A stretch of 22,533 nucleotides of DNA, taken from the IMG/VR virus record IMGVR_UViG_3300033143_000558, positions 1 through 22,533 of that record. One strand, 5' to 3'. Position numbers and translations under genes: made by a program. Below, one piece after another: positions 9,787 through 19,301 of this stretch. Under the pieces are notes generated by a model that saw only the letters and a program-made list of their open reading frames with translations, made no database searches and was not told where the DNA came from. Within the stretch, counting starts at the first letter, position 1. Every line of letters begins with the position of its first letter. This DNA comes from a virus.

Positions 9787-12700
9787 ATGGCAATTGATCA
9801 GGAATCATTCAATAATCGTTTATATCAGATTCTTAGGACTCGTGGGTATAAACCTGCACCTAAAGATTCTAAAAATGAAAGAACAAACCCGGAAACAGCA
9901 GACGTATTTGAGTTTCAATTCATTAAAGATGGTGAGAACTATGGAAAAGCATGGGCTACTATCGACAAAACATCATCACTAAATCTATATTATGATGACA
10001 ATCAAGCAGGCAGTCCACCGGGGCAAACTAAAGGCATGGACTACGATGATTCTTGGACCGGATTACTAAAACACTTAAAGCAATGGGCATTATCTAAACA
10101 ACTAAACTTCGGCTTACATGACAGTGATCGTTTAGGTGACGATATGCGTCAAAGGGATTATTATAAAATGAAAGAAAAGATGACAGAAGGTTATCATGCT
10201 GTTAATAAGATGACATCATATAACGATAACATACCAAATGTGAAAGTTGTAATACAACATGACAGACAAATCGGTGAGGGAGAACAACGTTGGAGAAACG
10301 TACACAAGATTTTTGTTGAAAACACTGAAGGTGAACGTTTTGCAGTCCCTACTAAAATGCCAGGCATTGCACGTGTATATGGTAGACACGTAGCAGAAGG
10401 TGGAACTCCGTATGATGAAAGAGGTAAGCACATTACTGCATTAGTAGAAGAATATACTAAAATGGCAGGGTTTATACGTGCTACTCGTAGAGGTGAGTTT
10501 AATGAATCAGTTGCAAAACTTATTGCTGAAGGTGTAAATCATCATAGATCATTAAAAGAAACTTTACAAAAGATGCAAAGTCATAGAGGATACAATCATT
10601 ACTTTGAGTCTTGGACACCTCCCCTTATGGAAGATGATTCTGATCACACAAGCATTGCAGAAATGTTTGCACAAGAATCAATCGACCCAAGAATCGAAAG
10701 TGTTTTACCTATCTTAAACAAACTTAATAGTAATATCATTAATGAAATTGAAGAAGTTAATGAGTTAGACGGTTGGGCAAAAGAAATCACAGAGATGACT
10801 GACGAATCAATTGATGAAGGTATTGTCGATAAAGCAATCGGTACAGCCGCAGAAAAAATTGCATCTAATCCAACAGTACAAAAATCTGTAAATGATCTTG
10901 CTGGTAAAGCAGTTTCAAGTCAAGCAGGCAATATAAATCAAATGGCACAAGCCGCAGGAAAATCTGCAGGAAGCGCCGCAGTCGATCAAGTTAATAGAGC
11001 AATCCCTGGCGCAGTAAACACTGCAACAGATCAAGCAATCGATAATCTTAAAGGACCAGCAATTGCAACAGGCGCCGGCATCGCAGGTGCTTCAGGTTTA
11101 GCCGCATATGCAGGTAATAAAGCCGCACAAAAAGATAATGAAAAAGTTTCTGAAGGAGCAATGAATAAGTTAGTTGTTGATGCTTTAGAAATGGGCAAAG
11201 AAGAATTTACGAAGAAGTACCCTACAATGGGTCATAGATATGAAGATATTGTTGCCGCATTTGATGAAGACGATTTAAAAGATAAACTTAAGGACCCAAA
11301 ACAAGGAGAACTAGATTTAACTACGCAACTTGAATTAGGGTTAAAAGAAGATATTGTAAATGAAGTAGTAAACAGAGCAATATTACAAAAAGAAGTAGAG
11401 CAAATAGTTAATAAGATTAAAATGGACGCCCGTGGTAATCAACAAAAAATTCGTAAAGACCTCAAAGGTGTATTATACGATTTACAAGACAAAATGAACA
11501 ATGCATCACCAGCAGAAAAAGAAACACTTAGACTTAAGCATCGAATGTTACAAAAGTACTTACGTATAGATATGGTGCCTGCAACAAATCCAGTTGATGC
11601 CGCTACTAAAGATGCAGATAAGATGCTTGATAATCCACGAAGTGTATTAGATAATCCAGCAAAACAAGTAACAGTAGGACGAGCGGGAGCAGGTATTGTA
11701 GGTGCATTAACAGGTATGTTTGAAGACTCACTACAAGAATCAGTCATTGATAAAAATGATTTTTCAGATAAACAAGTTAAAATGGCATATGGCATTTTAA
11801 ATGATCCTAGATTTAAAGGTGGTAATTTAGCAGGAGCAATTAAAGCAATAGAAGGAGTTGCCCCTGGTTTATCAGAACACCCTGGTGTTAAAAAAGCAAT
11901 TTACATGACACAGAATGAGCCGGATCAACTAGAAGAATTTCAAATGGGATCATTCGATGGAGATGATGACAAGCCTAGCAAAGGCAAATTAGTTACAGAC
12001 GACGGACAAGAAGTTATCTTACCATTAAGAACAGAAGATTTCAGAGGTGATCCAATTGTAGTTGTAGATTACATTCCACCTCATAAGCCAAGTTCAACAG
12101 GCAGAATCGTTACAGATAACGGGCAAACATATTTCCCGGGTGTCGCAGGTTTAAAAATTATCGGACATGAATTTGATATTGATGAAGCCTTGACAGGTCA
12201 AATCGGTGGTGCTATCGCAGGTGGAACATTAGGAACAGCAGTAGGTGGGTTCCCAGGACAAGTAGTAGGCGGTGCTTTAGGCGCTATTGCAGGAGATAAA
12301 CTACAAGATAAAGTAGACGATCTTGCTAAAGAAGACAAAGAAGATTTAAGAAGAATCAAAAAACTTGCTGACTTAGGTGGAACTGAAGATGATGACTTAG
12401 CAGATGAAGAATCTGGTAAAAACCACGACCCTAAGACAGGCAAAAGAATTAGACCTCATCCGTTTGATCCAGAAGATCATTTAGATGAAAACATTGAGAT
12501 TGGCGAAAAAGGTTTTTATGTAAACGTTGAAAACGGACAAGAACGACCTTTAACATGGCCACAATTTCAAAGTACATGGTATGACGAATTTAGAGATGAT
12601 CCTGAATCACGCAACATTTCAACAAATGAGTTATCTCAGAAGTATCAAGTATACTTAGATCAGTTAGGGGAAGAACCTTACCTCGAAGAAACTAAAGCAG

Positions 12701-13014
12701 GTGGATTTGATTTTGCCGGAGACTATAAAACAGGTCAAGCCGGACAATGGAAAAACACAGGCAAGACTAAAGGAAGACCTGCAAAAGTAGGTGACTTAGT
12801 TGGGGCGGAAAGTAAACACGCACATGATGAAATGTCTGTTAGTCAAATGTCTGATGAAGATTTAGCAGATTACCTGAATGTAGATGTTAAAGATGTTAAA
12901 GCAGATAGAGATCACGCAGAAGAAGTTGCAAACGACAAATCACGTGATCATGCACCTGACAATATGTTAGAAGACATCTTACGTTTAAGCGGATACGAAA
13001 AGTATGAAGTTTAA
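9787..13014 (+). CDS. Large probable virion protein with glycine-zipper segments, 1075 aa
   Basis: The largest gene on the + strand, directly after the terminase and behind a late promoter. Residues 1-280 form a mixed alpha/beta region rich in His, Arg and aromatics. The middle is highly charged, Gln/Asn/Ala-rich and helical. Two small-residue stretches stand out: ATGAGIAGASGLAAYAG near residues 426-445, and GQIGGAIAGGTLGTAVGG continuing to GGALGAIAGD near 804-835. The latter is a classic glycine zipper that can insert into membranes. The C-terminal part is acidic and ends EDILRLSGYEKYEV. Such zippers occur in proteins ejected with phage DNA, so a structural or ejected role is plausible. No enzymatic motif was found. 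It ends just before the Shine-Dalgarno site of the Cys-rich peptide. Confidence 0.75.
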   Translation: MAIDQESFNNRLYQILRTRGYKPAPKDSKNERTNPETADVFEFQFIKDGENYGKAWATIDKTSSLNLYYDDNQAGSPPGQTKGMDYDDSWTGLLKHLKQWALSKQLNFGLHDSDRLGDDMRQRDYYKMKEKMTEGYHAVNKMTSYNDNIPNVKVVIQHDRQIGEGEQRWRNVHKIFVENTEGERFAVPTKMPGIARVYGRHVAEGGTPYDERGKHITALVEEYTKMAGFIRATRRGEFNESVAKLIAEGVNHHRSLKETLQKMQSHRGYNHYFESWTPPLMEDDSDHTSIAEMFAQESIDPRIESVLPILNKLNSNIINEIEEVNELDGWAKEITEMTDESIDEGIVDKAIGTAAEKIASNPTVQKSVNDLAGKAVSSQAGNINQMAQAAGKSAGSAAVDQVNRAIPGAVNTATDQAIDNLKGPAIATGAGIAGASGLAAYAGNKAAQKDNEKVSEGAMNKLVVDALEMGKEEFTKKYPTMGHRYEDIVAAFDEDDLKDKLKDPKQGELDLTTQLELGLKEDIVNEVVNRAILQKEVEQIVNKIKMDARGNQQKIRKDLKGVLYDLQDKMNNASPAEKETLRLKHRMLQKYLRIDMVPATNPVDAATKDADKMLDNPRSVLDNPAKQVTVGRAGAGIVGALTGMFEDSLQESVIDKNDFSDKQVKMAYGILNDPRFKGGNLAGAIKAIEGVAPGLSEHPGVKKAIYMTQNEPDQLEEFQMGSFDGDDDKPSKGKLVTDDGQEVILPLRTEDFRGDPIVVVDYIPPHKPSSTGRIVTDNGQTYFPGVAGLKIIGHEFDIDEALTGQIGGAIAGGTLGTAVGGFPGQVVGGALGAIAGDKLQDKVDDLAKEDKEDLRRIKKLADLGGTEDDDLADEESGKNHDPKTGKRIRPHPFDPEDHLDENIEIGEKGFYVNVENGQERPLTWPQFQSTWYDEFRDDPESRNISTNELSQKYQVYLDQLGEEPYLEETKAGGFDFAGDYKTGQAGQWKNTGKTKGRPAKVGDLVGAESKHAHDEMSVSQMSDEDLADYLNVDVKDVKADRDHAEEVANDKSRDHAPDNMLEDILRLSGYEKYEV

Positions 13015-13024
13015 GGAGACTAAT

Positions 13025-13069
13025 ATGAAATGTGAATGCTGTTCATGTTGCAACTGCACTTGTTGCTAA
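13025..13069 (+). CDS. 14-residue cysteine-rich micropeptide (MKCECCSCCNCTCC)
   Basis: A tiny reading frame behind a strong Shine-Dalgarno sequence AAGGAG at 13013-13018, six bases before the ATG. Its 14 residues are MKCECCSCCNCTCC: eight cysteines (57 percent), spaced C-x-CC-x-CC-x-C-x-CC, with no hydrophobic residue after Met. The pattern of CC and C-x-C pairs is like the metal-thiolate clusters of metallothioneins. The Shine-Dalgarno site overlaps the stop codon of the 1075-aa gene, so the peptide would be translated from the same late mRNA. Its reality rests on the ribosome site, the clear stop and the extreme composition. A chance ORF cannot be ruled out at this size. Metal binding is inference. 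Confidence 0.6.
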   Translation: MKCECCSCCNCTCC

Positions 13070-13085
13070 GAGATAATGATAGAAA

Positions 13086-13229
13086 GTGGAACTAATTTTT
13101 GTATTAATTCTTATGATGCTACCGATGATAGGCGGTGGGTTTACCTTTATAGTAAGTCAACAAGCAGTAGAAGGTAAATTTAATGGCGGACAAGAAAAAG
13201 AAACAATCAAAAGTTTATTTGATACCTGA
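13086..13229 (+). CDS. Short membrane peptide, 47 aa (GTG start)
   Basis: Starting at GTG 13086, 16 nt after the Cys-peptide stop, this frame encodes VELIFVLILMMLPMIGGGFT as one membrane-spanning helix, then FIVSQQAVEGKFNGGQEK and a short charged tail, ending inside the start of the bL33 gene (47-nt overlap, different frame). The abrupt hydrophobic-to-polar layout is what a real small membrane protein looks like. The ribosome site is weak (AAGAGA), so coupling to the upstream peptide is possible. An internal ATG pair at 13113 would leave only half the helix, so GTG is preferred. Function unknown; small one-TM phage peptides often act on the host membrane. Confidence 0.45.
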   Translation: MELIFVLILMMLPMIGGGFTFIVSQQAVEGKFNGGQEKETIKSLFDT

Positions 13230-13386
13230 AAGTGAAACTAGAAACTCTCATACATATCATTACACTGCTATTAAAACAAAAAACTTAACCGTAAACAATA
13301 CTAAGTTAAGACTTAGGAAGTATAATCCGGTTAAAAGAAAACATGAGTGGTTTGTAGAAGCAAAACTACCCCCTCATTCTAAATAA
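13183..13386 (+). CDS. rpmG: Ribosomal protein bL33, phage-encoded
   Basis: The 67-residue product aligns by eye with bacterial bL33 of the large ribosomal subunit (near the E site). bL33 has an N-terminal basic stretch, K-x-x-L-(I/V)-x-x-x-E/T, a Y-x-x-x-K-x-x-N loop, and the signature L-(K/R)-K-(Y/F)-(D/N)-P-x-x-R-x-H-x-x-(F/Y)-x-E-(A/T)-K. Here: KVYLIPESE, HYTAIKTKN and KLRLRKYNPVKRKHEWFVEA (residues 41-60) then Lys. No cysteine is present, so it is the zinc-free type. Marine viruses are known to encode ribosomal proteins including bS21, bL12 and bL33. The N- and C-termini (KKKKQSK, LPPHSK) are longer than in typical host bL33. An AGAAGG site precedes the ATG. It may enter the host ribosome during infection. 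Confidence 0.8.
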   Translation: MADKKKKQSKVYLIPESETRNSHTYHYTAIKTKNLTVNNTKLRLRKYNPVKRKHEWFVEAKLPPHSK

Positions 13387-14527: not shown

Positions 14528-14935
14528 CTATTGTTTACTGCTAAATGCTTTTCCTGCTTCAGCAATACCAAATGATCCTAATGTAACAACAACAAAAGAC
14601 GTATAGATAAAGTCTGATATAACTAAATCAGTGCCGTCTAATCCTGTCACTAAGTCTACAATACCAAACGCAACCATCATAAAGAACGATGCAAATCCAA
14701 TGATTGATTTCTCATTGATTTTATTGTCGTCCATGAATAGATGACTAAGTTTGAATTTTTCTTTTGGTTTCACTTCATGGGAAACTTTTCTTAAGTCCTG
14801 AGTTAATGCTTCCATCTCTCTGATTTTGTCATTAGCCTCGTCTAGTTTTAGAAGTAGATCAGTATATTTGTCTAAATCTAAGTTTTGAACGACTCCATCG
14901 CCGCCCTCGATTTCGATGTTTTCTTTGTCACTCAT
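14528..14935 (-). CDS. Membrane protein, coiled coil plus two TM helices, 135 aa
   Basis: The N-terminal 50 residues are acidic and helical (LLLKLDEANDKIREMEALTQ), followed by a basic linker (KPKEKFKLSHLFMDDNK) and two hydrophobic helices, SIIGFASFFMMVAFGIVDLV and SDFIYTSFVVVTLGSFGIAE, ending KAFSSKQ. Holin-like hairpin topology is possible, with a long cytoplasmic coiled coil unlike usual holins; a true holin of another class already exists at 5314. The gene begins in a TAATG overlap with the 997-aa gene upstream and behind AGGAG, indicating coupled translation. It lies 9 nt ahead of the coiled-coil membrane protein, so the two may form a complex. Function unknown. Confidence 0.7.
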   Translation of the reverse strand: MSDKENIEIEGGDGVVQNLDLDKYTDLLLKLDEANDKIREMEALTQDLRKVSHEVKPKEKFKLSHLFMDDNKINEKSIIGFASFFMMVAFGIVDLVTGLDGTDLVISDFIYTSFVVVTLGSFGIAEAGKAFSSKQ

Positions 14936-17928
14936 TATTTTTGCTCCTGTGTTTCTTCATCTGGATTTATTCCATATTGCATAAGAACCATCTTATACAA
15001 CTTTTCTTGTGTATTACCAGCCATACGATAGAATCCCATTTTGTTATCATCTATCTTACCATCTGGCATTTGTTTAGTATCAAAGAAACCTGTGTTCCCC
15101 TGACTATATACTTGCTCGCCTGTGTAAGCACTAAAGCCTGCTGTATAACCTATATAAGCAACAGCAATAGTTTGGTCAGCATAACCGCCATCTTCAGTAG
15201 GTTCGCCATCCTGAATGTTTTGAAGTTGTGCTTCCAAATTCTGTTGTGCAACAGCAGAGCCTACACTGTCTGCTAAACTCTCAACTGCTTCTGTAGTACG
15301 TTGTTCTTGTACTGAGTTCTGTACTTCAAAACGTTGAAAGTTTGGTGCTTGTTGACTTAAAAACTCAGTCAACCCTGTACCAGTCGCCAATGCTTCAGTT
15401 AAATTATCTTCAAACTGTACGTCAGTACTACTAATTCCACCAGTACCGTCATCAAAGTTTTCTATGAATAACTGTTCTTCTTGCATCATCTCTTGCTGTT
15501 GTTCAGCAACTTCAAACGCAGAAGTCTGTGCGACATCTACAGATGTACTAGCAACGTCAATAGACGTATCAACTTGACCAGTTACTTGTTCAAATTGTTG
15601 TTGGCTAGAATCATCTGCAACTACACCAGTCGAATCACTACTAGATGAACTAGCAACTGATTGTGAACCGGTGTTATTAAAACTACTACCGTCTTGACCT
15701 GCGAAACTTTGTGATGCGCCTGAATCAACTTGAACTGATGCTGAGGCTCCTCCGTCACTAATTACACTTTCAATTACATTAGCAGTTTGTGTATCGTCAG
15801 AAACCTCAGAAACAAACTGTGCAATAGCAACACTTTGATATGCAGGTCTTGACTTAGAAGACGAACCAGAACTTGAAACAGCCTGTTCTGCTTCTTTCTC
15901 TACACGAACTTCTTCTTGTGCGAGTTCTTCACGTACTTCTTCTTGTTCTTCTACTACCTCTTCTTGTTCTTCTACGAGTTCTTCAACTTCCTCGACTACT
16001 GCCTCTTCTCTCATTTCTGTTGGAGATTCTTCAGCAATTAATTGTTCTAACTCGTCTTCACTAATTAATTCTTCAAATGCCTCATCTTCTACAATAAGGT
16101 CAAATACTTCTTCAGACTCAACAAAGATTTCTTCTTCAGACTCCATAAGGAGATCGTCTTCTACTACTTGCCAAACTTCTTCTTCAGGCGCAGATTCATA
16201 TGTCTCCCAGTTAATTGTTCCGTCTTCAGTGAACTCTATATTACTATGCCAAGAATCAACTTCTTCTTGTCCATAAGTTTCAACATCATGTTCATAGTAA
16301 TCTTGGTCTGTGAACGTGTAGAAATCTTCTCCGTATGTGTCAACCATATCTTCTAATCGTTCTGTTTCTTGTTGTTGAAATTCTTCAGTTGCCCAAACAT
16401 CAGCACCAATCATCTGAATGTTACCACTCGGATCCCATTCAAGTGCTTGTTCTTGCATTGCTTGGTCATGTAGTTCAGTGTCATAGTTTTCTAATCCACC
16501 TACAGTTTCTAATACATAATCACCTGGTCTATGTCCGTTAAATTGTACTGCTAATGGATCTTCACCTAATGCGGCTATTTGTTCATTTCCCATTGTAACA
16601 AACATAGCATCTTGCGGAGATAAACCTTGATCAACTAACATCTGTTGTTCTGTGTTCAAGTCATCATATGTAATGTTAGGATCTAGTCTAGGGTCATAGT
16701 TACCGTCGACCATCCAGGGTTCATCACCGAAGTCACCATTGACACCTCCGTCATCGTAGATATAGCCATCATCATACATAGATCCGTCTGTGTTGTATTG
16801 CTCTCCAGTAGTAGGATCAGTAATTAATCCTGTAGTTGGATCGTAACCTCCTGAACTAGTAGCGGCTATTGCGGCATCATAACCTGGGCAACTTGGATCA
16901 TACAATGGATCAATCTCACACATCAACCCTTCATCTACTTCATTGTTTTCATAAAACTCACATCCACTATCATATTGAGGATCCAAATTACATTGATACT
17001 CTAAGTATGCTATATCATATAATAAACAATCTGTTGAATATAAAGGATTGCTCTGACATTGTGCTGGTTCTCCATCTGCATCTGAAAAAAGTATGCCGCC
17101 CCCATCTTCTAAGTATCCTTGATCCATATCATCAAATGTATTGTCAACACTACCATCACCTAAGTTATCTGTACCGTCATCATAAAATAGATACTGAGTG
17201 TAGTTGTTCTTATCTTTTTGTTCACCTATTAAAACATCATGTTGAATAATATCTAAATCACCATAAACAAATCCATAGTTGTCAGGTTTGTTTACTTCTG
17301 CTCTTTGTGCATCACTACATGATATATTTGGATGATCTCCGCATTTCGTAGCAGAATCATTGTAATCAAATATGTAAACTTCAAAACTATTTTCTGATGC
17401 TCTATTGTATTCTTTTAAAAAATACCAACCGAATATGGCATAATCATCAAATGCTTTATATAACAATGCACTATTACTATTTTTCCCAATCAAGTCAGTG
17501 TAAAAGGGAAAAAGAGTATCAGTTGCATTTTTAGTATAACCATCTTGTCCACTACCTAATGCATTAGGTGTGTAATCTTGGCAATACATACTGTTCATAT
17601 TAGAAATGAAGTAATCTTCTTTTACTAATTTAAGACAACCGTTCGTACTCATTACTGCGGCAGTATACGATTCGTTATGCCACTCCCATGAAAAACCAAA
17701 CTCCATTCTTATGCCACAACCACCGTCATCACTAAACTGACCAATAGTACAACCAGTTGCACCGGTGCCACTACGAGTTAAATCATACAAATCACCGTAA
17801 TCTCCAGTCACTGAGTAAATGGTATTGGTGCCGTCAGCATTTGACTCATTGTAGTTAGGAGGATTGTATTGTGCTACCGCAAACATGGGTAGCATCAATA
17901 GTAATGATATTATTTTGAATCGTGCCAT
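14935..17928 (-). CDS. Exported 997-aa protein: NIDO-like N-domain, Cys repeats, acidic region
   Basis: A Sec signal peptide, MARFKIISLLLMLPMFAVAQ, with cleavage after AVA, sends it across the inner membrane. Residues about 20-270 have a beta-rich pattern with LFPFYTDLIG, faintly NIDO-like (weak). Residues 291-351 hold three repeats of C-x3-P-x-Y-x3-C-x2-Y: CQSNPLYSTDCLLY, CNLDPQYDSGCEFY, CEIDPLYDPSCPGY. About 585-680 is extremely Glu-rich (VEEQEEVVEEQEEVREEL), followed by a Ser/Gln/Asp-rich region. The C-terminus has an IAVAYIGYTAGFSAYTGEQV segment and a compact end. I recall this kind of ending in uncharacterised marine phage proteins. Starts at ATG behind GAGGCAG, overlapping the upstream gene by 19 nt. 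Surface or periplasmic role inferred; not a normal tail protein, which would lack a signal peptide. Confidence 0.75.
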   Translation of the reverse strand: MARFKIISLLLMLPMFAVAQYNPPNYNESNADGTNTIYSVTGDYGDLYDLTRSGTGATGCTIGQFSDDGGCGIRMEFGFSWEWHNESYTAAVMSTNGCLKLVKEDYFISNMNSMYCQDYTPNALGSGQDGYTKNATDTLFPFYTDLIGKNSNSALLYKAFDDYAIFGWYFLKEYNRASENSFEVYIFDYNDSATKCGDHPNISCSDAQRAEVNKPDNYGFVYGDLDIIQHDVLIGEQKDKNNYTQYLFYDDGTDNLGDGSVDNTFDDMDQGYLEDGGGILFSDADGEPAQCQSNPLYSTDCLLYDIAYLEYQCNLDPQYDSGCEFYENNEVDEGLMCEIDPLYDPSCPGYDAAIAATSSGGYDPTTGLITDPTTGEQYNTDGSMYDDGYIYDDGGVNGDFGDEPWMVDGNYDPRLDPNITYDDLNTEQQMLVDQGLSPQDAMFVTMGNEQIAALGEDPLAVQFNGHRPGDYVLETVGGLENYDTELHDQAMQEQALEWDPSGNIQMIGADVWATEEFQQQETERLEDMVDTYGEDFYTFTDQDYYEHDVETYGQEEVDSWHSNIEFTEDGTINWETYESAPEEEVWQVVEDDLLMESEEEIFVESEEVFDLIVEDEAFEELISEDELEQLIAEESPTEMREEAVVEEVEELVEEQEEVVEEQEEVREELAQEEVRVEKEAEQAVSSSGSSSKSRPAYQSVAIAQFVSEVSDDTQTANVIESVISDGGASASVQVDSGASQSFAGQDGSSFNNTGSQSVASSSSSDSTGVVADDSSQQQFEQVTGQVDTSIDVASTSVDVAQTSAFEVAEQQQEMMQEEQLFIENFDDGTGGISSTDVQFEDNLTEALATGTGLTEFLSQQAPNFQRFEVQNSVQEQRTTEAVESLADSVGSAVAQQNLEAQLQNIQDGEPTEDGGYADQTIAVAYIGYTAGFSAYTGEQVYSQGNTGFFDTKQMPDGKIDDNKMGFYRMAGNTQEKLYKMVLMQYGINPDEETQEQK

Positions 17929-19265
17929 TCTGCCTCACAAGTCTTTGTAGTTTTTCGTCTTCCTTTAAAGTCAGGTCTAGTACATTTTTCTACAAAAGCG
18001 GCTTGATCATCAGAGACATTTGCAATATTATCAACTTCAATTTCATCAGAACCTAATACACCAAGTAATCTGCTTTTTACACCTTTCTTAGTATCTGGTC
18101 TTTTCTGTGAGTTTTCTTCCCATTGCTCAGAAGCGGCTGGACCTATAGCACCCATATACGGACAAGGTGTACCGGCCATTTCCATTGCTTGAAACACTCT
18201 AGGATCCTGACACATTAATGATACTGCGGCTACTTTCATACCCATATCATATATTGTTTTAGATAGTTTGATCCTTTCACAGTTCATATCTCTAACAGAC
18301 TTACCACCTGATATACCAAATACTTGCCCCTGAAACGCACCAGACACACCAGTTGTACATAAATCTTGCGAATAACTTGACCCTATGCTTGGTGCAATTG
18401 CACTAGCAGGTGGAGCCTTTGTAGTGATCTCTTGTTTAATAGTCTGATCAGTTTTGTTTATGTTGGTGTTATTGTTTGTGTTGGTGTTGTTATTTTCATT
18501 CTTACTGGTATTGTTAGTGGTCACATTAGAGTCACTTGTACTAGTAGAAGTGTTGTTATTGTTATTGGTATTAGTATTATTCGAGGTCGTGTTGTTATTA
18601 TTCGTATTGGTATTATTCGATGTAGAATTACTATTACTGTTAACATTTTGGTTAATGTTAGAATTGTTGTTGTTAGTATTCGTATTATTGGAAGTACTAT
18701 TCACCGTTGTATTATTGGTGTTATTATTGGTATTAGTATTCGTGCTAGTCGAAGTGTTAGTATTGTTATTGGTGTTGGTATTGTTACTGGTCGTATTGTT
18801 GGTATTATTGTTGGTATTCGTATTCGTATTGGTATTGTTGTTGGTACCGTTATACGTGGTGTTGTTGGTGTTATTATTGGTATTATTATTGGTGTTCGTA
18901 CTGGTCGAAGTATTAGTGTTAGTATTATTATTAGTATTGGTATTGGTCGAAGTACTGGTATTAGTGTTCGTGTTATTGTTGGTATTAGTGTTCGTGTTAT
19001 TGTTGGTATTGGTGTTGGTATTGGTGTTAGTATTGGTGTTAGTATTATTATTGGTGTTGGTATTTGTACTAGTGTTAGTATTGGTGTTGGTATTCGTATT
19101 AGTCGAAGTGTTGGTATTCGTATTTGTGGTAGTACTCGTAGAGGTACTTGCTTCACAATTATCTGTACCCGCCGTACATGTGCCTGTTGCTTGAGCAAAA
19201 ATATTTGGGCTGGCAAAACCCACACTAAATAAAATTAGTGCGATTTTCAAATGTTTCATGTGCAT
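17910..19265 (-). CDS. Exported Asn/Thr-repeat protein with conserved Cys domain, 451 aa
   Basis: First gene of the minus-strand unit. The start is the ATG at 19265 because AAGGA lies eight bases upstream; a GTG 33 bp earlier keeps the frame open but would sit almost at the predicted mRNA 5' end. A signal peptide, MKHLKIALILFSVGFASPNI then FAQA, follows. Residues about 40-275 are almost only Asn, Thr and Ser in TNTN, NNNT and TSTS runs. The C-terminal domain has CERIKLSKTIYDMGMKVAAV, SLMCQDPRVFQAMEMAGTPC and PYMG; from memory, this domain occurs in other marine phage proteins next to variable repeats. Several cysteines suggest disulphides in the periplasm or outside. It overlaps the next gene by 19 nt. 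Surface adhesin or envelope-modifying protein is inference. Confidence 0.75.
   Translation of the reverse strand: MHMKHLKIALILFSVGFASPNIFAQATGTCTAGTDNCEASTSTSTTTNTNTNTSTNTNTNTNTNTSTNTNTNNNTNTNTNTNTNTNTNNNTNTNTNNNTNTNTSTSTNTNTNNNTNTNTSTSTNTNNNTNNNTNNTTYNGTNNNTNTNTNTNNNTNNTTSNNTNTNNNTNTSTSTNTNTNNNTNNTTVNSTSNNTNTNNNNSNINQNVNSNSNSTSNNTNTNNNNTTSNNTNTNNNNNTSTSTSDSNVTTNNTSKNENNNTNTNNNTNINKTDQTIKQEITTKAPPASAIAPSIGSSYSQDLCTTGVSGAFQGQVFGISGGKSVRDMNCERIKLSKTIYDMGMKVAAVSLMCQDPRVFQAMEMAGTPCPYMGAIGPAASEQWEENSQKRPDTKKGVKSRLLGVLGSDEIEVDNIANVSDDQAAFVEKCTRPDFKGRRKTTKTCEAEWHDSK
18440..19140 (-). repeat. Degenerate Asn/Thr/Ser-coding tandem repeat
   Basis: About 700 bp built from short units encoding Thr-Asn and Asn-Asn/Thr-Ser pairs (6-bp steps on the minus strand, AAT/AAC with ACT/ACC), with third-base variation. 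Codon variation means it is not a pure microsatellite, which limits slippage but leaves copy number open to change by recombination. Near-absence of stop codons in the opposite frames creates long false antisense ORFs here. Confidence 0.85.
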
Positions 19266-19301
19266 AATTTGATTCCTTAATCGTAAGTTAGTTCGCACTA
19301 T

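Follow-up and report, generated by a model that had tools for sequence, protein, structure and literature searches.

A 14-residue, eight-cysteine peptide gene under selection in uncultured phages is a probable metallothionein-like metal binder

Introduction

Metallothioneins usually have a length of 24-75 aa, and the modules of Tetrahymena subfamily 7a end in CXCXXCXCCK (PMC1808422). The mammalian metallothionein domains are Zn3Cys9 and Zn4Cys11 (PMC10243857), and the wheat Ec-1 gamma domain has two Zn (PMC6269658). In mycobacteria, polycysteine short ORFs are cysteine-responsive attenuators (Canestrari 2020, cited in PMC13236596). No phage peptide family of the kind reported here was found described in the literature, a possible listing in the phage small-gene survey of Fremin et al. 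2022 aside.

We analyzed a virus contig of 22.5 kb over its full length of 22,533 nucleotides (IMG/VR record IMGVR_UViG_3300033143_000558), hereafter the window. It carries genes for a T4-type terminase large subunit, UvsX/RecA, a gp32-like protein and ThyX.

Results

The peptide gene and its surroundings

The original prediction had placed a 14-residue, eight-Cys peptide behind an AAGGAG site at 13013-13069. Direct reading returned the same gene, and the range is exact from the Shine-Dalgarno site to the stop. The features of the locus are as follows.

9787..13014, + strand: upstream gene of 1075 aa, function unassigned; a glycine-zipper match is weak and below the cut-off.
13013..13018, + strand: Shine-Dalgarno site AAGGAG, with a spacer of 6 nt to the ATG (direct reading).
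13025..13069, + strand: gene of the 14-aa peptide MKCECCSCCNCTCC, core C-x-CC-x-CC-x-C-x-CC (direct reading; same-locus homologues with 8 Cys; family in unrelated contigs).
13086..13229, + strand: small hydrophobic ORF of 47 aa with a GTG start (VELIFVLILMMLPMIGGGFTFIV...), between the peptide and bL33 genes and overlapping the bL33 start.
13183..13386, + strand: bL33-like ribosomal protein gene of 67 aa, without cysteine (Pfam Ribosomal_L33).

Eight of the 14 residues of MKCECCSCCNCTCC are Cys, and its codons are ATG AAA TGT GAA TGC TGT TCA TGT TGC AAC TGC ACT TGT TGC TAA. The AAGGAG overlaps the TAA (13012-13014) that ends the 1075-aa gene. When 300 windows were simulated under a first-order Markov model of the window, no comparable ORF (at most 30 aa, at least 8 Cys and at least 50% Cys) was obtained.

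The 67-aa ORF narrowly missed the curated Pfam cut-off of 25 bits (24.3 bits, E 4.2e-5). Its product lacks cysteine and is therefore of the zinc-free type; close relatives are present in more than 50 viral contigs, and the annotated phage collection gave no match. The window, L008 and the L040/L044 group share the conserved frame of the 47-aa hydrophobic ORF, which L003/L004/L020/L053 lack. Two predicted proteins are encoded farther along on the minus strand. One, of 997 aa (14935-17928), is secreted-like, acidic and Glu/Ser-rich and lies within a minus-strand gene block. The other, of 462 aa (17910-19298), consists mainly of Asn/Thr repeats (NTNTNNNTNT...), and the strand opposite to it has long mirror frames.

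Conservation at the same locus

Same-locus relatives were fetched by their flanking genes, with the 1075-aa upstream gene as anchor. The peptide played no part in the choice, which is therefore independent of it. One contig (L002/L036/L090) was nearly identical to the window. The peptide was found at the same place in five other contigs, with all 8 Cys kept in each:

MNTKCECCSCCNCTCC, in L003 and L020.
MSKCTCCECCNCTCC, in L004.
MNSKCKCCSCCNCTCC, in L008.
MNTKCECCTCCNCTCC, in L053.

The ribosome site is kept as (G)TTAAGGAGA in all five. The remaining close relatives had neither a peptide frame nor a decayed copy at the locus, and in them the upstream gene continues directly into the next gene. 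No copy was present elsewhere in the 26 records without the peptide at this locus. The stretch upstream in L053 is unrelated, and the peptide unit is all that is missing from its sister L051; the unit is therefore gained and lost by itself. Since presence is optional in close relatives, the peptide is not essential.

It had also been proposed that the frame, with a CC/CxC pattern like that of metallothionein clusters, is a gene too short for standard gene finders, which could be checked by the open frame and conserved Cys in relatives and by the ratio of synonymous to nonsynonymous change. The five flank-chosen contigs bear out the first point. For the second, substitution counts drawn from two flank-chosen sets gave 5 synonymous and 0 nonsynonymous minimum changes at Cys codons, compared with 1 and 10 at spacer codons (Fisher p = 0.0014), which is not a non-coding pattern. 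On this sequence evidence, the 14-residue peptide is a real, strongly conserved gene that annotation had missed, its translation is predicted, and selection is acting on the peptide rather than on DNA or RNA. The RNA of three members folded no better than shuffles (z -0.35, 0.21 and -1.26), which is a weak test. On this lack of structure, an RNA element was rejected.

A family with one fixed core

The family comprises at least 35 distinct peptides of 13-18 residues in at least 57 viral contigs besides the window. Its members share the core CxCCxCCxCxCC, which ends at the C terminus or no more than 2 residues before it. An IMG/VR scan for a ribosome site, an ATG and CxCCxCCxCxCC followed by a stop returned 45 stretches, compared with 1 for a mirror-image motif of the same bases. 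On inspection, almost all matches were frames of 13-18 aa in many unrelated contigs.

A pattern search may yield a motif that looks conserved only because the pattern demanded it. This bias was controlled by the two flank-based searches and by a relaxed scan. The second flank search was anchored on an upstream protein (c2) of another group. A short Cys-rich ORF was present at 17 of the 80 loci, and all 17 had 8 Cys; two of them, MSKCKCCKCCKCTCCS and MNKCKCCKCCKCTCCS, have an extra C-terminal Ser, a type that the motif scan excludes. The relaxed scan asked only for CC-x-CC-xxx-CC, leaving Cys 1, Cys 6 and the stop free. It yielded 8 further members, all of which have both unrequested Cys and run 1-2 residues past the last CC. 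Short frames lacking part of the core were limited to three longer poly-Cys frames that arose by chance; L456 is a further poly-Cys frame, and it fits the core by chance. Each peptide-bearing record holds exactly one copy and the reversed pattern gave 0; the entry for L358 in the copy-count list is a repeat artefact.

The spacers are also restricted. Spacer 2 is mainly Lys, spacer 3 mainly Asn or Ser, and spacer 4 mainly Thr, Asp or Glu. After Met1, none of the 35 distinct peptides contains V, L, F, W, H, P or A, and Tyr occurs in one.

We considered whether the frames are chance ORFs or simple-repeat, TGT-rich DNA with no peptide product, as the gene is short and rich in TGT/TGC. Such an origin is effectively refuted by the mirror-image control (1 vs 45), the purely synonymous change at Cys codons, the all-or-none presence of the peptide, the conserved start, stop and ribosome site, and the 35 different peptides.

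The carriers are uncultured, mostly marine-type phages, with flanking sequences similar to Pelagibacter phage HTVC008M, Methylophilales phage Melnitz and T4-like cyanophages. The peptide was absent from HTVC008M, Melnitz, P-SSM7, P-SSM2, S-CAM4, ACG-2014j, ACG-2014f, S-SCSM1 and C48C1, and it was not found in three single-cell virus records. BLAST at the peptide level against phages gave nothing convincing. A BLAST match of Synechococcus phage ACG-2014f under the Cys region was discarded, as no such peptide appeared in the three frames read. The motif with a ribosome site occurred in 0 of 385 bacterial genomes from the class of an alphaproteobacterial MAG and in 0 of 386 from the phylum of a Vampirovibrionales MAG. 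A cellular origin was also rejected: when genome contigs were scanned for the bare motif, only out-of-frame or poly-Cys matches were seen among those listed and inspected.

Placement between operon genes

The peptide gene is set between two operon genes, often 3-20 nt past the upstream stop, and the next gene often begins 0-9 nt past the peptide stop. Within the c2 group, empty and filled sites can be compared. That of L380 is empty and reads AAAGAAC-TAA-GGATAAATAATACT-ATG, and the filled site of L372 reads AAAGAAC-TAA-GGATAAATAT-[peptide]-GGGGAAAGAT-ATG. The peptide therefore takes over the old ribosome site and supplies a new one for the next gene. Phage C48C1 shows how the L345 context looks when the site is empty, with overlapping stabilizer and TerS genes.

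Neighbors vary widely across the family, and there are others besides those given here:

bL33, in the window.
PhoH and exonuclease, in L095, L353 and L159.
Cytidyltransferase pieces, in L331 and L157.
Tail sheath stabilizer and TerS, in L345.
Primase and ribonucleotide reductase, in L093.

At two junctions, the pieces on either side of the peptide form a single fused protein in other phages, and the site between the domains appears to be a hot-spot where small genes insert, among them NfuA. The c3-c1 junction holds the peptide in L157, L338, L508, L556 and L558, and the c2-c0 junction holds it in L331 and L372. Residues 18-337 of phrog_455 are matched by c3 and residues 420-637 by c1, and the match of c0 is to the final domain of the phrog_3041 cytidyltransferase. 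The position relative to the c45 gene varies within one phage group: the peptide gene precedes c45 in L133, L156 and L329 and follows it in L357. These differing sides suggest that the gene moved locally around c45.

bL33 was dropped as a functional clue because most members have other neighbors, and the link is incidental to the phage group of the window. The proposed control of bL33, which is only one of many neighbors, is not supported.

That proposal belonged to a wider one, a regulatory leader sensing cysteine: if Cys-tRNA ran short, ribosomes would stall at the Cys codons and so alter the expression of the next gene. The phage ORFs share with the mycobacterial polycysteine leader ORFs their shortness, consecutive Cys codons and a position upstream of another gene, and the attenuator role of the latter (Canestrari 2020, cited in PMC13236596) speaks for such a function. 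The small distance to the next gene would also permit translational coupling. However, a stall signal needs neither the fixed Cys spacing nor the constrained spacers of the phage peptide. Genes of unrelated kinds lie downstream (bL33, exonuclease, HesB, IscU, NfuA, cytidyltransferase and TerS), and neither they nor the Fe-S genes among them tie the peptide to cysteine supply or biosynthesis. A place upstream of a gene on the same transcript holds in most members and fails in L340, where the peptide is the last operon gene and is followed by a hairpin and opposite-strand genes, with no same-strand gene for about 3 kb. No RNA structure that could switch on stalling appeared in the three members folded, a weak test as noted. 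Because the spacing is fixed, the downstream genes are unrelated and the L340 copy ends its operon, we consider a leader function very improbable.

Iron-sulfur genes beside the peptide

An Fe-S assembly gene is the immediate neighbor in six contigs, representing three or four independent settings. The arrangements are as follows.

Peptide-IscU-IscA: L484/L557 (IscU E 1.3e-37).
Peptide-HesB/IscA: L361 and L362.
Peptide-NfuA, with no intergenic base: L537/L556.
NfuA-peptide: L465/L558 and L521/L559.

In L361 and L362, heme oxygenase, ferredoxin-dependent bilin reductase and HesB/IscA genes are clustered in a cyanophage-like manner beside the Cys peptide.

NfuA occurs in 3 of 50 records and adjoins the peptide gene in all 3, the three cases sharing one gene locus. 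With related contigs counted once, 3 Fe-S adjacencies compare with about 0.27 expected (p ~0.003, post hoc), the expectation being a rough estimate from gene counts. These adjacencies would suit a small carrier of Fe-S, iron or persulfide that acts together with the phage proteins IscU, IscA and NfuA in the maturation of Fe-S proteins during infection. We hold this specific role only tentatively, as somewhat improbable. Against it, most members have other neighbors (PhoH/exonuclease, cytidyltransferase, tail and terminase genes, bL33), and IscA/IscU genes are equally frequent per genome with and without the peptide. In L338, IscU and IscA lie about 49 kb from the peptide, and in the window the peptide has no Fe-S neighbor. 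The peptide has in common with the carriers IscA/HesB, NfuA and IscU a Cys-based chemistry and the adjacency in six contigs; unlike them, it shows no domain similarity and is far too short for their folds. The Fe-S link is a lead only.

Discussion

We propose that the selected and presumably translated micro-peptide is probably a minimal, metallothionein-like metal-thiolate binder. Given the invariant CxCCxCCxCxCC order and the hydrophilic spacers, it resembles a thiolate cluster ligand. The family resembles metallothioneins (for example the mammalian alpha domain and Tetrahymena subfamily 7a) in being very rich in Cys, in its CC and CxC(C) motifs, in hydrophilic spacers with much Lys/Ser/Thr/Asn, and in the near absence of aromatic or bulky residues. 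Small and Cys-rich like them, with 8 Cys in 13-18 residues, it departs from metallothioneins in length: all 35 distinct members are 13-18 aa, below the usual 24-75 aa. The peptides also differ in being phage-encoded and in having a single fixed 12-residue core, and the likeness lies in composition and Cys motifs. As far as can be judged from sequence, the peptide works like a metallothionein; it is not to be classed as one yet.

In the proposed mechanism, the peptide would be translated from a ribosome site of its own within phage operons that already exist. Its eight thiolates, within 12 residues and separated by the hydrophilic spacers, would fold around soft metal ions such as Zn, Cu(I), Fe or an Fe-S cluster. 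By analogy with known clusters, 8 Cys might suffice for two or three divalent ions or for several Cu(I). Within the infected cell, the peptide would then buffer, sequester or hand on metal. Because IscU, IscA and NfuA recur as neighbors, iron or Fe-S supply is the leading, still speculative, candidate for its use.

The same sequence data fit a thiol/redox buffer, or a zinc- or copper-stripping agent that inhibits a host metalloprotein as a host take-over peptide. Eight thiols per peptide make a dense redox store, and a single copy per genome with patchy presence fits an accessory gene. However, a plain redox buffer would need no invariant CxCCxCCxCxCC spacing, and there is no evidence for any host target. 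We regard both roles as distinctly unlikely. It is also unlikely, if less so, that the 13-18-residue peptides are a new metal or Fe-S cluster ligand rather than a metallothionein relative, spread from operon to operon and used alongside the phages' own IscU, IscA and NfuA to govern the supply of metal cofactors in infection.

If metallothionein-like metal binding is true of this family, the size limit of natural metallothionein-like genes would fall to about 13 residues, and phages would carry such genes widely. The peptides would be among the smallest selected protein genes known, and would clearly exemplify strong selection on a gene left out by annotation pipelines. Finally, the handling of host Zn, Cu and Fe by phages would become directly testable, and the Fe-S gene neighbors would point to a specific pathway.
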